A DNA stretch of 24,118 bases from a virus. Below the pieces are notes generated by a model. The model did no database searches and had not been told where the DNA came from. It worked only from the letters and a program-made list of their open reading frames with translations. Below are positions 2,408 to 24,118 of this stretch, one piece after another. The position numbers and the translations under genes are program-made. The stretch's first letter is position 1, and the number at the start of each line of letters is the position of its first letter. The stretch spans positions 1 through 24,118 of IMG/VR virus record IMGVR_UViG_3300009103_000151. One strand, given 5' to 3'.

Positions 2408-2484
2408 TGGCACACTCGGCAGGACTCGAACCTGCAACCCTCTGCTTAGAAGGCAGATGCTCTATCCGGTTGAGCTACGAATGC
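2408..2484 (-). tRNA. tRNA-Arg (anticodon UCU)
   Basis: A full 77-nt cloverleaf folds on the minus strand. The acceptor stem is GCATTCG/CGAGTGT (one G-U at each of two positions); the D arm is GCTC/GAGC. The anticodon arm is TCTGC-CTTCTAA-GCAGA with anticodon TCT (2450-2448). The variable loop is GGGTT. The T arm is GCAGG-TTCGAGT-CCTGC, and discriminator G and the CCA end are encoded. It reads AGA codons. It is the only tRNA seen, and is probably matured from the operon transcript, since no separate promoter is evident. Confidence 0.95.
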
Positions 2485-4947: not shown

Positions 4948-6096
4948 CTAACCTACCTTTTCTTCGTCGAGTTTGTCACCGTCGATGTCATAGAACTTTG
5001 ATGCATCACCTTCTCGTTTTTCAAACTTGAGAATAACCTCTTCGTCGATGATGTCTTTTGCTGTTGCTCGGAACTCTTCGTTAGTCAAATAAAGTTCTTG
5101 AAAATCTGCTTTATAAAACTTCTTCGATTCTTTACCGTCTTTGTCGATCAGGCAATAGAACGCGCCGCGATTGCGAACTCGGTCACTATCTTTAATTGCC
5201 AAGAAGATACTTTCTTCATCGAGGATGCGAACTTCTTCTCCTCCCCATAGGATTCTGAAAATGCACTCTCTGCCATCGGTGCCAAAACGTGACTTCTTCA
5301 ACTTTGCTTTCACTTCTGATCCTGCACGAAAACCTTTGTCATCATAGAAGTATGATGCCTTTGCTTTACGACCTGTCAAGTAGATGCGAAGTGATGAGGC
5401 ATAGTGCATTGACTTGCCACCCGGTGTTACATACGGATCAATCATTGCTGCTGCAACATCTCTTGTGATGTTCGTCTTCAGTTGGTTTAACACCAAGAAG
5501 GTGCTGTTGGTTTGCGACAATGGAACTGTTAGTTTCATCATTGCCTTTGATAAAATTCTTGCTTTCAACCCAATGGTTTCTTGGGGATTAAATGTGCCCT
5601 CGACATCGGTTGAAGTTGGAGTGTTGGCAAGGGAATCCCAAATGAATAACTTGCGAGTGCCCCCACTATTCATAACTGTCTCAACTGCTTCTAAAACCTG
5701 CTCAACACTATATGCTGTAATGTATAGAAACTTCCCCTCAGTGCATCCCATGCGAACCAAGAAGTCCTCATCGATGGCTGCCTCGGAATCAAAGTAAATT
5801 ACTTCCATGCCCATAGCATTTGCATTAGCAGCAATCTGTGCTGCCATATATGATTTGCCCGAACCTTCTAGTCCAGCAATCTCCGTAATCTTTCCAATGG
5901 GAATACCTGCTGTTTTGCCTCGACAAATGATGCTGTCCAACCAAGTGCTTCCTGTGGGAATCCACTCTTTTACATTGGATGGATTCTCCCCACTATTGAG
6001 GTGACGAGCTACGGTCATTCCCGCACTCTTGTTGAGTAAATCTTTGATATTATCGAGAGATATTTTTCCCGGTGTTTCATTCTTTTTCTTTGCCAT
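4948..6096 (-). CDS. uvsX: UvsX-like RecA family recombinase
   Basis: 382 aa, matching T4 UvsX in size. It has Walker A GLEGSGKS (75-82), the catalytic-Glu region YFDSEAA (E105), Walker B KLFIWDSLA (D154), and VLNQLKTNI like RecA motif 4. It contains IPTGSTWLDSIIC near the N-terminus and a disordered C-terminal half rich in Lys and Glu. It forms filaments on ssDNA and drives strand exchange, recombination-dependent replication and repair, with gp32-type SSB (encoded two genes upstream) and helicases as partners. AGGAGT lies about 6 nt upstream of the ATG. The leader contains the conserved hairpin at 6117-6139, which could limit or terminate read-through into this gene. Confidence 0.93.
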   Translation of the reverse strand: MAKKKNETPGKISLDNIKDLLNKSAGMTVARHLNSGENPSNVKEWIPTGSTWLDSIICRGKTAGIPIGKITEIAGLEGSGKSYMAAQIAANANAMGMEVIYFDSEAAIDEDFLVRMGCTEGKFLYITAYSVEQVLEAVETVMNSGGTRKLFIWDSLANTPTSTDVEGTFNPQETIGLKARILSKAMMKLTVPLSQTNSTFLVLNQLKTNITRDVAAAMIDPYVTPGGKSMHYASSLRIYLTGRKAKASYFYDDKGFRAGSEVKAKLKKSRFGTDGRECIFRILWGGEEVRILDEESIFLAIKDSDRVRNRGAFYCLIDKDGKESKKFYKADFQELYLTNEEFRATAKDIIDEEVILKFEKREGDASKFYDIDGDKLDEEKVG

Positions 6097-6111: not shown

Positions 6112-6146
6112 AAAATGGGGCATCTGTATCCCATGCCCCCCTGCGG
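6112..6146 (-). promoter_or_regulatory. Conserved intercistronic hairpin, loop GGGATACAG (copy 1)
   Basis: Transcribed strand: CCGCAGGG leads into a 7-bp stem GGGGCAT/ATGCCCC closing the loop GGGATACAG, followed by ATTTTTTA. It starts exactly 8 nt after the stop codon of the 67-aa ORF and ends about 16 nt before the uvsX ATG. The U6 tail makes it resemble an intrinsic terminator. The second copy at 6388-6422 is identical apart from one compensatory pair. Confidence 0.75.
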
Positions 6147-6154
6147 ATTACAAT

Positions 6155-6358
6155 CTACTTGCTTTGAACAAAAGAATAGAGTTTGGTTGCTTCAGCAATT
6201 ACATCCTCTGTCGAGTAGGGTTGAACAGGGTTTCTTTGACCCTCTGGTTTAAGATGTTCATTCTCAAACTGTCGGTGCAATCTGTTCTCTACGATACCAA
6301 TTGCCATTCCAAGCAAGTCGGTTCTCAGTTCATATGCGTTTTTATTGTTATCACTCAT
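6155..6358 (-). CDS. Small protein between ssb and uvsX, unknown function
   Basis: 67 aa: MSDNNKNAYELRTDLLGMAIGIVENRLHRQFENEHLK..., then a Pro-rich link (PEGQRNPVQPY) and STEDVIAEATKLYSFVQSK. Short proteins with an 'AYELRTDLLGMA ... EDVIAEAxKLYxFVxxK' pattern occur beside recombination genes in T4-like cyanophages and marine phages; their role is not known to me. AGGAGT is placed well before the ATG. Both its upstream and downstream borders carry the same conserved hairpin, so its mRNA segment may be processed or regulated as a unit. Confidence 0.75.
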   Translation of the reverse strand: MSDNNKNAYELRTDLLGMAIGIVENRLHRQFENEHLKPEGQRNPVQPYSTEDVIAEATKLYSFVQSK

Positions 6359-6387
6359 AATATACTCCTGTGTATGTGTGTGTTATT

Positions 6388-6422
6388 AAAATGAGGCATC
6401 TGTATCCCATGCCTCCCTGCGG
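6388..6422 (-). promoter_or_regulatory. Conserved intercistronic hairpin, loop GGGATACAG (copy 2)
   Basis: Transcribed strand: CCGCAGGG, then stem GAGGCAT/ATGCCTC around loop GGGATACAG, then ATTTTAATAA. It starts exactly 8 nt after the gp32-like stop codon, the same spacing as copy 1. Over the 35-nt block only two bases differ from copy 1, and they pair with each other (A-T here, G-C there). The weaker U-run makes efficient termination less likely here than at copy 1. Confidence 0.75.
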
Positions 6423-6430
6423 AATTCATT

Positions 6431-7177
6431 TTATGCTGACAGCAAATCATCAAAGGCAGCATCAACACTACTCTTTGCCTGATCTCCCGTAACTCTCGTT
6501 TCGGAAGATGACTCTTCGGCAGAAGAATCAGAAGATAGGTGTTCGTCTAAAATAGTCTTCACCTCTCCTGTTGACTTTGCCTCGAACAATTTATCAAAAT
6601 CAGGAACTTTTGAAAGAACTTGATCGCATTCTTCGGAAGTCAGATCAATACACATAGTGGAGGTTTTCCGTTTAGGTGTAAGTGATGTTTGGGGAAAGGA
6701 TGCTCCAGCAGGTTTGCCATATTGCAAATCCAAATCGGTGCCAGCATCTGGATCAGTGATGTCTCCGTATTCCGGATTCAACACTAATGTCAACAGGGTT
6801 TCATAAACCTTCTTGCCATATCCCCAGACCTTTGGCCCTTCGGTTTCCTCTCCTCGGACAAGAACAGGGGAAAAGAATCGTTGACGTGCTGTCAAATCCT
6901 TTGCCATCTTAACACTTCCCTCGTCACCCTCTTTGTAAAGGGACTTTGCGAAGTTGCAGACAGCACATTCTTCTCCATAGTTTCTGTTGGGACAAAGGAA
7001 TCCTGAATTCTGTCCGACATTATAGTGGAAGAAATAAGATTTGAAAGGATCTCCATCTTCCGTCGGTAGAATTCGAATTGTTTGTGTACCATCCTGCGGT
7101 TTCCAGAAAGAGTTGTTCCCACCCTTGCTCTGCAAATTCGTCAGTTTACTTTTCATTTTATTTAAATCAATAGCCAT
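6431..7177 (-). CDS. Single-stranded DNA-binding protein, T4 gp32-like
   Basis: 248 aa. It has the three-part plan of gp32. The N-terminus is short and basic (MAIDLNKMKSKLTNLQSK), like the LAST-type cooperativity region. The OB-fold core carries a zinc site with H51, C62, C71 and C74 (spacing as in T4 H64/C77/C87/C90). The C-terminal tail is acidic, Ser-rich (HLSSDSSAEESSSE), and ends AAFDDLLSA, the usual tail for docking partner proteins. It coats ssDNA and recruits UvsX, polymerase and helicase. The AAGGAA ribosome site is 9-10 nt before the ATG, a long spacing. A conserved hairpin follows 8 nt after the stop. Confidence 0.92.
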   Translation of the reverse strand: MAIDLNKMKSKLTNLQSKGGNNSFWKPQDGTQTIRILPTEDGDPFKSYFFHYNVGQNSGFLCPNRNYGEECAVCNFAKSLYKEGDEGSVKMAKDLTARQRFFSPVLVRGEETEGPKVWGYGKKVYETLLTLVLNPEYGDITDPDAGTDLDLQYGKPAGASFPQTSLTPKRKTSTMCIDLTSEECDQVLSKVPDFDKLFEAKSTGEVKTILDEHLSSDSSAEESSSETRVTGDQAKSSVDAAFDDLLSA

Positions 7178-23548: not shown

Positions 23549-24118
23549 TCAACCCGTTGTAAAGGGGCTCTTGAACCACACTCCATTTTCATTAAAGTAA
23601 TATTTGTTCTCTTTATCAAATGGTCCGATAGCAGAAGATCCCGTACTAGAGACGTAAATAACCCTCCCAGAATATGAGGAAGAGTTGTTATAAAATCCTG
23701 TTAAAATGGCCCGGTCTTCGGAAGAGGAAGCATTGAGGTGTAGCACATCATGCATATCTGGCATTTCAACGCTTGCTGTGGATGCAACATCGTGACCGTC
23801 GTTGAAGAATGGACTTGGGTGCCAAACTCCGTTTTCATTAAAGTAGAATTTTCTTGGAATCTTGAAAGAATCAACGGGACTCGAACCTGTTGCAGCAAGA
23901 TATATGATCTTGCTCGCATAGCTACTCGCACTCAGATGATACTTGTTGAGAAGTGCCCTATAAGTCCCTCCTGGTCCGTCGTCAGCAATAGTCAGAACAC
24001 CATTTCCAACTGAAACAATCGTGTCTCCTCCTCCACCACCGCCGGTGCCCAGAAGTGCCCATGATCCATTTTGATAAAACTGAAACGCATTGTCTGTCGT
24101 GTTGTAGATCATTGTCCC
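23549..24118 (-). CDS. Glycine-rich repeated virion or fibre-like protein (5' end missing)
   Basis: The frame is open to the right edge (GGG ACA before the first visible Met at 24112), so the start lies outside the window. The segment MIYNTTDNAFQFYQNGSWALL is the common 'xIYNTTTxxFxxYxxGxWxxL' motif of phage fibre and surface proteins, and it normally lies internally, which supports truncation. A hexaglycine hinge (GTGGGGGGD) follows. Two diverged repeats of about 55-60 residues come next, each with RA(L/I)L, SSY, (V/I)IY, TGSS and YFNENGVW..SPF. It may be a fibre, whisker or decoration protein. The final stop is 12 bp before the completion-like gene. Confidence 0.6.
   Translation of the reverse strand, partial: GTMIYNTTDNAFQFYQNGSWALLGTGGGGGGDTIVSVGNGVLTIADDGPGGTYRALLNKYHLSASSYASKIIYLAATGSSPVDSFKIPRKFYFNENGVWHPSPFFNDGHDVASTASVEMPDMHDVLHLNASSSEDRAILTGFYNNSSSYSGRVIYVSSTGSSAIGPFDKENKYYFNENGVWFKSPFTTG

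Follow-up and report, generated by a model that had tools for sequence, protein, structure and literature searches.

A predicted intercistronic pseudoknot family between ssb and uvsX in uncultured T4-like bacteriophages

The gene 32 operators of bacteriophages T4, T2 and RB69 combine an RNA pseudoknot with an A+U-rich unstructured leader (PMC535899, PMC3014915). The T4 pseudoknot is about 28 nt long (PMC535899), and a 2010 review regarded it as possibly the only viral case in translational autoregulation (PMC3014915). The element analyzed here resembles these operators in that it is a predicted H-type pseudoknot of similar size that adjoins a gp32-type ssb gene and is followed by an A/U-rich stretch and a Shine-Dalgarno (SD) sequence. 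However, the T4 pseudoknot precedes gene 32 and represses that same gene, whereas the present element lies behind ssb and behind further genes, differs in its conserved sequence and has a short first stem (S1) of 3 bp; our searches gave no link between the two. Other described elements share its position rather than its fold. Intercistronic stabilizing hairpins, such as the REP sequence in malE-malF and the puf hairpin, lie between cistrons and set the ratio of their products by protecting the upstream RNA. The intercistronic site and a proposed ratio-setting role are common to both, although the present element would be a pseudoknot and appears largely restricted to one phage operon. The promoter/stem-loop (PeSL) cassettes of T4-type phages are likewise structured, lie at gene junctions and are tied to the gain and loss of small genes; in contrast, our element is a pseudoknot found mostly in the ssb-uvsX block, and the roughly 26 nt behind it leave little room for an early promoter.

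The window, by which we mean the whole stretch of DNA analyzed, comprises 24,118 nt of IMG/VR virus record IMGVR_UViG_3300009103_000151. Its minus strand carries ssb (6431..7177), which encodes a 248-aa gp32-like single-strand DNA-binding protein (phrog_1192, E 4.6e-25; Pfam PF08804 gp32, E 1.3e-13), orf67 (6155..6358), a 67-aa ORF that is conserved across related ssb-uvsX blocks and gave no match in Pfam and PHROG searches, and a gene for a 382-aa UvsX-like recombinase (4948..6096; phrog_97, E 2.5e-53). The order on this strand is ssb – TAA AATGAATT CCGCAGGGAGGCATGGGATACAGATGCCTCATTTT – orf67 – TAG ATTGTAAT CCGCAGGGGGGCATGGGATACAGATGCCCCATTTTTT – uvsX, such that one copy of the element follows ssb (copy 1, 6388..6423, minus strand) and a second follows orf67 (copy 2, 6112..6147, minus strand). 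The stop codons of ssb (TAA, 6433-6431) and of orf67 (TAG, 6157-6155) each lie 8 nt before CCGCAGGG, and the uvsX start codon is 20 nt past the copy 2 stem. An initial annotation had described two 35-nt blocks here that differ by one compensatory base pair, share the loop GGGATACAG (on the coding, minus strand) and the flanking CCGCAGGG, begin 8 nt after a stop codon and precede ribosome sites, and for the two window copies all of this is correct, coordinates and sequences included. No direct repeat in the window is stronger than this pair (46 nt, 87%), and a covariance model of the family finds these two places as its sole matches within the window (E = 3e-10; 2.6e-10 for copy 1 and 3.2e-10 for copy 2). 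When each copy is treated as a single hairpin, its folding is about equal to or barely above that of shuffled sequence (z -0.3 to -1.7), and for this reason the two copies alone are no proof of selection and the case rests on homologues. Elsewhere in the window, a tRNA-Arg(tct) gene is present at 2408-2484 (minus strand), a 75%-alike stretch with a T-arm-like motif, without a call from ARAGORN, lies towards the opposite end of the window (23862-23889), and another short direct repeat (23576-23605 and 23822-23851; 30 nt, 87%, about 246 bp apart) lies in a 187-aa ORF at the window end.

Comparison of homologues indicates that the element, of about 36 nt, is an H-type pseudoknot rather than the plain hairpin first described: the 7-bp stem of that hairpin is real, but the NCC on its 5' side pairs with GGN' of the loop. 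The layout consists of S1 (NCC/GGN'), a 5-nt loop L1 (RCRGG), the 7-bp stem S2, a 1-nt L2 and an L3 that ends in CAG. In copy 1 these parts are UCC (S1a, 6423-6421), GCAGG (L1, 6420-6416), GAGGCAU (S2a, 6415-6409), G (L2, 6408), GGA (S1b, 6407-6405), UACAG (L3, 6404-6400) and AUGCCUC (S2b, 6399-6393), followed by the tail AUUUU (6392-6388); S1 and S2 both covary in homologues. The corresponding parts of copy 2 are UCC (S1a, 6147-6145), GCAGG (L1, 6144-6140), GGGGCAU (S2a, 6139-6133), G (L2, 6132), GGA (S1b, 6131-6129), UACAG (L3, 6128-6124) and AUGCCCC (S2b, 6123-6117), and here the tail AUUUU (6116-6112) continues as a U-run to 6110.

The rationale for the second stem is the observation that the base before CCGCAGG changes together with the fourth loop base, giving A-U, U-A, C-G and G-C combinations. 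No pattern of the wider scan constrained either position of this third S1 pair. A non-redundant set of 38 ssb-linked copies, whose SSB proteins are less than 70% identical, holds 29 copies of type 1, the subtype of the window, and nine of a second subtype, type 2. The third pair is Watson-Crick in 27 of the 29 type-1 copies (9 C-G, 9 A-U, 6 U-A and 3 G-C) as compared with a mean of 11.7 and a maximum of 22 in 20,000 shuffles, a figure that is not a strict probability as the 38 copies are still related by descent; it is C-G in all nine type-2 copies. Four pair types at one position require several independent changes. For the complete 10-pair structure, 99.4% of cells are paired and the covariation score is 0.349, against 0.163 for shuffled and at most 0.148 for slid versions, with 14 sequences left out for the covarying S1 pair because MAFFT misplaced its loop base in 9-nt loops; the pair was also counted directly. 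The Hc1-linked clade is an exception, since its third S1 pair is G·G in 30 of 41 copies, and S1 may consist of two pairs there. An additional pairing between a loop GAUA and a 3' tail UAUC, seen by eye in some Hc1-linked copies, was rejected as it is missing in others. Nor is the loop invariant, as had been claimed: its fourth base covaries, its length is 9-11 nt, and in five loci (L162, L184, L322, L337, L350) L3 contains a long hairpin-bearing insert and the remainder of the knot is preserved.

Type 2 came to light in loci fetched by SSB protein alone. It reads CCCACAGG…AGGGUUAUCAG and has the same topology, with the layout CCC ACRGG GRGGCAC A GGG UUAUCAG GUGCCUC. The first base of L1 and the base of L2 switch jointly between the subtypes, GCAGG occurring with G and ACRGG with A, and mixed cases are rare; both subtypes can share one operon. 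The type-1 motif CCGCAGG may be complementary to the 3' strand of 16S helix 45 (CCUGCGG); such complementarity is probably due to chance and is lost in type 2 (CCCACAGG).

Pattern scans place the element in more than 100 uncultured viral contigs. A pattern that fixes CCGCAGGG and GGGATACAG and leaves the stem free matched 53 viral contigs, one with the exact spacing of the window matched 12, and a wider pattern gave at least 120 matches. With the pattern CCGCAGGGRGGCN(2-4)GGNNWACAG, in which the 3' arm is unspecified, all seven stem pairs are present in 152 of 153 distinct viral places, where pairs change between A-U and G-C, A-U and C-G, and C-G and U-A; in cellular genomes the same pattern is accompanied by a full stem in one of 28 places (L279). 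The other 27, in GC-rich cellular genomes, were set aside as chance matches, as were matches of a loose pattern in collagen-like ORFs (L003, L008, L029, L036, L038, L052). Plain duplication is ruled out, as homologues keep the fold with compensatory changes. Read on the coding strand, the stems of the distinct viral matches include G·U pairs in 73 cases and A·C pairs in none, which identifies RNA as the level of selection and, being true of one strand only, rules out a palindrome maintained in DNA. The homologues thus lend strong support to selection acting on both the RNA structure and unpaired bases, as was proposed at first from the two copies for structure and loop identity. Cellular genome bins yielded just two elements, L279 and L398, which lie on contigs C202 and C145 of Flavobacteriales metagenome-assembled genomes; C202 is a small contig that bears orf67 and a cold-shock-like protein, and it is probably a viral contig inside the bin. 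Cultured phages gave no match to the element. Among Rfam 15 families, a tRNA was the sole match in the window, the element region at E up to 10 gave one spurious and partial fluoride-riboswitch match, and ten further loci with both subtypes matched no family; the literature held no relevant description of a matching element. Distant relatives selected by UvsX only (33-37% identity) lack it, so the element is not a general feature of T4-like phages.

Almost every copy is located in the ssb-uvsX interval on the coding strand, where each gene is followed by one copy. In loci that hold ssb, the copies are on the ssb strand with the exception of one Hc1-linked locus, and most are within 1.5 kb of ssb; contigs of 100-290 kb contain 0-3 copies each, nearly all in the ssb-uvsX block. 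The gene orders can be written as ssb-PK-(X-PK)n-uvsX, where PK is the pseudoknot and X is Hc1, orf67, FKBP or a small lipoprotein-like ORF. A histone H1-like Hc1 gene (PF07432, about 62 aa) lies between ssb and uvsX in many related phages (L004-L055 and others), the pseudoknots behind this gene share the conserved leader ACTCTGACAG, and genes for FKBP-type prolyl isomerases occupy the interval in L137, L147, L151, L202, L208 and L311. The genes downstream of the element encode UvsX, Hc1, FKBP, orf67, uncharacterized ORFs or tRNAs and have no metabolic theme in common, such as the targets of a metabolite riboswitch would have. An SD sequence and a start codon follow 233 of 255 copies at a median of 26 nt past the stem and a minimum of 16. 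At four loci the next gene is a tRNA, such that the element stands between an ORF and a tRNA, and the element at G004:152031, outside the ssb block, is also ahead of a tRNA.

The 8-nt spacing of the window, which had been expected to be constant, is a distribution in homologues, with 5-14 nt from stop to NCC in 184 of 194 copies and a mode of 7-9 nt. In gammaretroviral readthrough, a pseudoknot stands about 8 nt behind the stop codon, and one hypothesis is that the element likewise stimulates stop-codon readthrough or frameshifting. The modal spacing agrees with such a role; however, spacers use all three frames (85/45/64), which indicates that no extension is conserved, and the stop behind ssb is mostly UAA and almost never UGA (91 TAA, 43 TAG and 1 TGA), such that we regard this reading as very improbable.

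Phages differ in which genes lie between ssb and uvsX, yet the element is retained at each junction. In L284, whose SSB is 95% identical to that of the window, the order is ssb-PK-uvsX, exactly one orf67-pseudoknot unit fewer. The leader of its only element matches window copy 1 and the body matches copy 2, with the seam falling in CCGCAGGG, as would be the outcome if a cross-over there had removed or added orf67 together with a pseudoknot. These observations would also suit a recombination seam or mobile repeat, conserved by DNA shuffling rather than by RNA function. Such a repeat predicts copies in both orientations or with broken structures, and these were not seen: there is a single orientation, apart from the one Hc1-linked locus, contigs hold few copies, and G·U without A·C together with S1 and S2 covariation points to a selected coding-strand RNA fold. 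It is hard to credit this explanation at all, and cassette shuffling is probably a by-product.

How does the element relate to the terminators that other phages carry at this place? Among 75 assessable ssb loci that were found by protein only, and with three assignments corrected manually, 41 carry the pseudoknot behind ssb and 27 carry an intrinsic terminator, while the remaining 7 fit neither class; in three of these seven (L329, L346, L357) the next gene starts at once and the element stands behind later genes. On the ssb tree the terminator label requires 12 changes, at least six of them forced by well-supported branches. The rho-independent terminators behind ssb in sister phages resemble the element in that they lie a few nucleotides past the ssb stop and just before the next SD sequence, and the element stem is GC-rich as theirs is. 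The element differs from them in being a predicted pseudoknot with a conserved 5' single strand and loop, not a long GC hairpin with a tetraloop, and its U-tract is weak or absent in many copies. The first 12 nt past the stem contain on average 6.4 T in terminators, 5.0 in type-1 copies behind ssb, 4.0 in Hc1-linked copies and 3.1 in type-2 copies behind ssb, the last being equal to background (2.8-3.4), and a run of at least four T is present in 78%, 54%, 17% and 20% of these groups, respectively. The locus L300 has a type-2 pseudoknot behind ssb and, no more than 15 nt on, a separate intrinsic terminator (TGGCAGAC...GTCTGCCATTTTTC), and L301 and L302 are identical at this place.

The element thus shares the terminator's site but not always its U-tract, and since many pseudoknot tails contain few U, it probably does not act as an ordinary terminator. 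An alternative hypothesis is a terminator or attenuator assisted by the pseudoknot, alone or together with a host or phage factor, at which part of the polymerases would stop and expression of orf67 and uvsX would be lowered. The exchange with intrinsic terminators at the same site, the U-enriched type-1 tails and the AUUUUUU directly past the stem of window copy 2 argue for it. However, the fold is the same in type-2 copies, which lack this enrichment, and in Hc1-linked copies, which show it slightly, both subtypes occur in one operon, L300 has its own terminator directly behind the pseudoknot, and the conserved 5' CCGCAGG and loop would be superfluous for an ordinary terminator. We consider an assisted terminator doubtful, if still worth serious attention.

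By analogy with gene 32, SSB could nucleate on the pseudoknot, spread over the unstructured leader and repress the next gene. The pseudoknot followed by an A/U-rich leader and an SD sequence, and the near confinement to the ssb neighborhood, would fit a translational operator of this kind, but no copy with ssb as its downstream gene was found among those surveyed, and the element would therefore not autoregulate SSB. Moreover, some copies precede tRNA genes, terminators take its place at the same site, and there is no Rfam match of any kind. A protein-binding operator, one of the roles raised by the initial annotation, is weakened by the absence of copies upstream of ssb and by the copies ahead of tRNA genes, and we judge the gp32-type version of it unlikely. 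Strong conservation of the unpaired L1 (RCRGG) and L3 (...CAG) over many loci, and the coupled change of L1 G with L2 G to L1 A with L2 A, could instead reflect a site for another trans-acting factor, whether in antitermination, as at lambda nut, or as a phage-coded endonuclease or processing factor. No candidate factor was found, and small pseudoknots also keep loop bases for groove triples, which counts against this reading; it seems distinctly unlikely.

We tentatively favor, at somewhat less than an even chance, an intercistronic insulator that would protect the upstream 3' end and attenuate downstream expression, keeping SSB above the downstream proteins. Of the roles first listed, that of an attenuator or processing site controlling the SSB : 67-aa : UvsX ratio agrees best with the data, since related phages have classical terminators at this very place. 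The element sits in the gap where one ribosome terminates and the next initiates. In this model, RNA polymerase would read past the element, at least partly, given that only about 26 nt separate it from the next start codon, which leaves hardly any space for a promoter. After cleavage in the A/U-rich stretch that follows the knot, or a stop of transcription there, the stable and mechanically strong knot would mark the upstream message's 3' end and shield it from 3'-to-5' exonucleases. The yield of SSB, and likewise of Hc1, FKBP and orf67, would then exceed that of the next gene's product, above all UvsX, and a leaky classical terminator would be the route of related phages to the same outcome. 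The T4 gene 32 mRNA is unusually stable and is processed by RNase E, including near its stop codon (PMC3014915). A 3'-end guard with partial attenuation is favored based on the exchange with terminators, the position behind genes and not before ssb, the tRNAs downstream and the dispensable U-tract; where the element has an ORF on one side and a tRNA on the other, a role on the 3' side is more sensible than a translational one. Four observations stand against such an insulator. L1 and L3 are conserved in sequence beyond the need of a pure barrier, which hints at contact with a protein or the ribosome. Copies are few per contig and lie in the ssb-uvsX block, while a general 3' protector might be commoner. 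The run of at least four T is present in roughly half of the type-1 copies that follow ssb, and some termination at these copies is possible judging by their tails. Finally, the Hc1-linked clade breaks the third S1 pair.

We hypothesize, with slightly less assurance than we attach to the insulator, that the element represents a previously undescribed family of cis-acting RNA pseudoknots in phages that takes the place of intercistronic terminators, a U-tract-free roadblock or 3' guard that would be fitted between ribosomes and would move as gene-pseudoknot cassettes within the ssb-uvsX block. In many uncultured T4-like phages, the ssb region is marked, on the opposite side of the gene, by a widespread pseudoknot family that differs from that of gene 32. 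It provides a simple annotation marker for these viruses and a compact natural element for probing how one operon gives much SSB and less UvsX.
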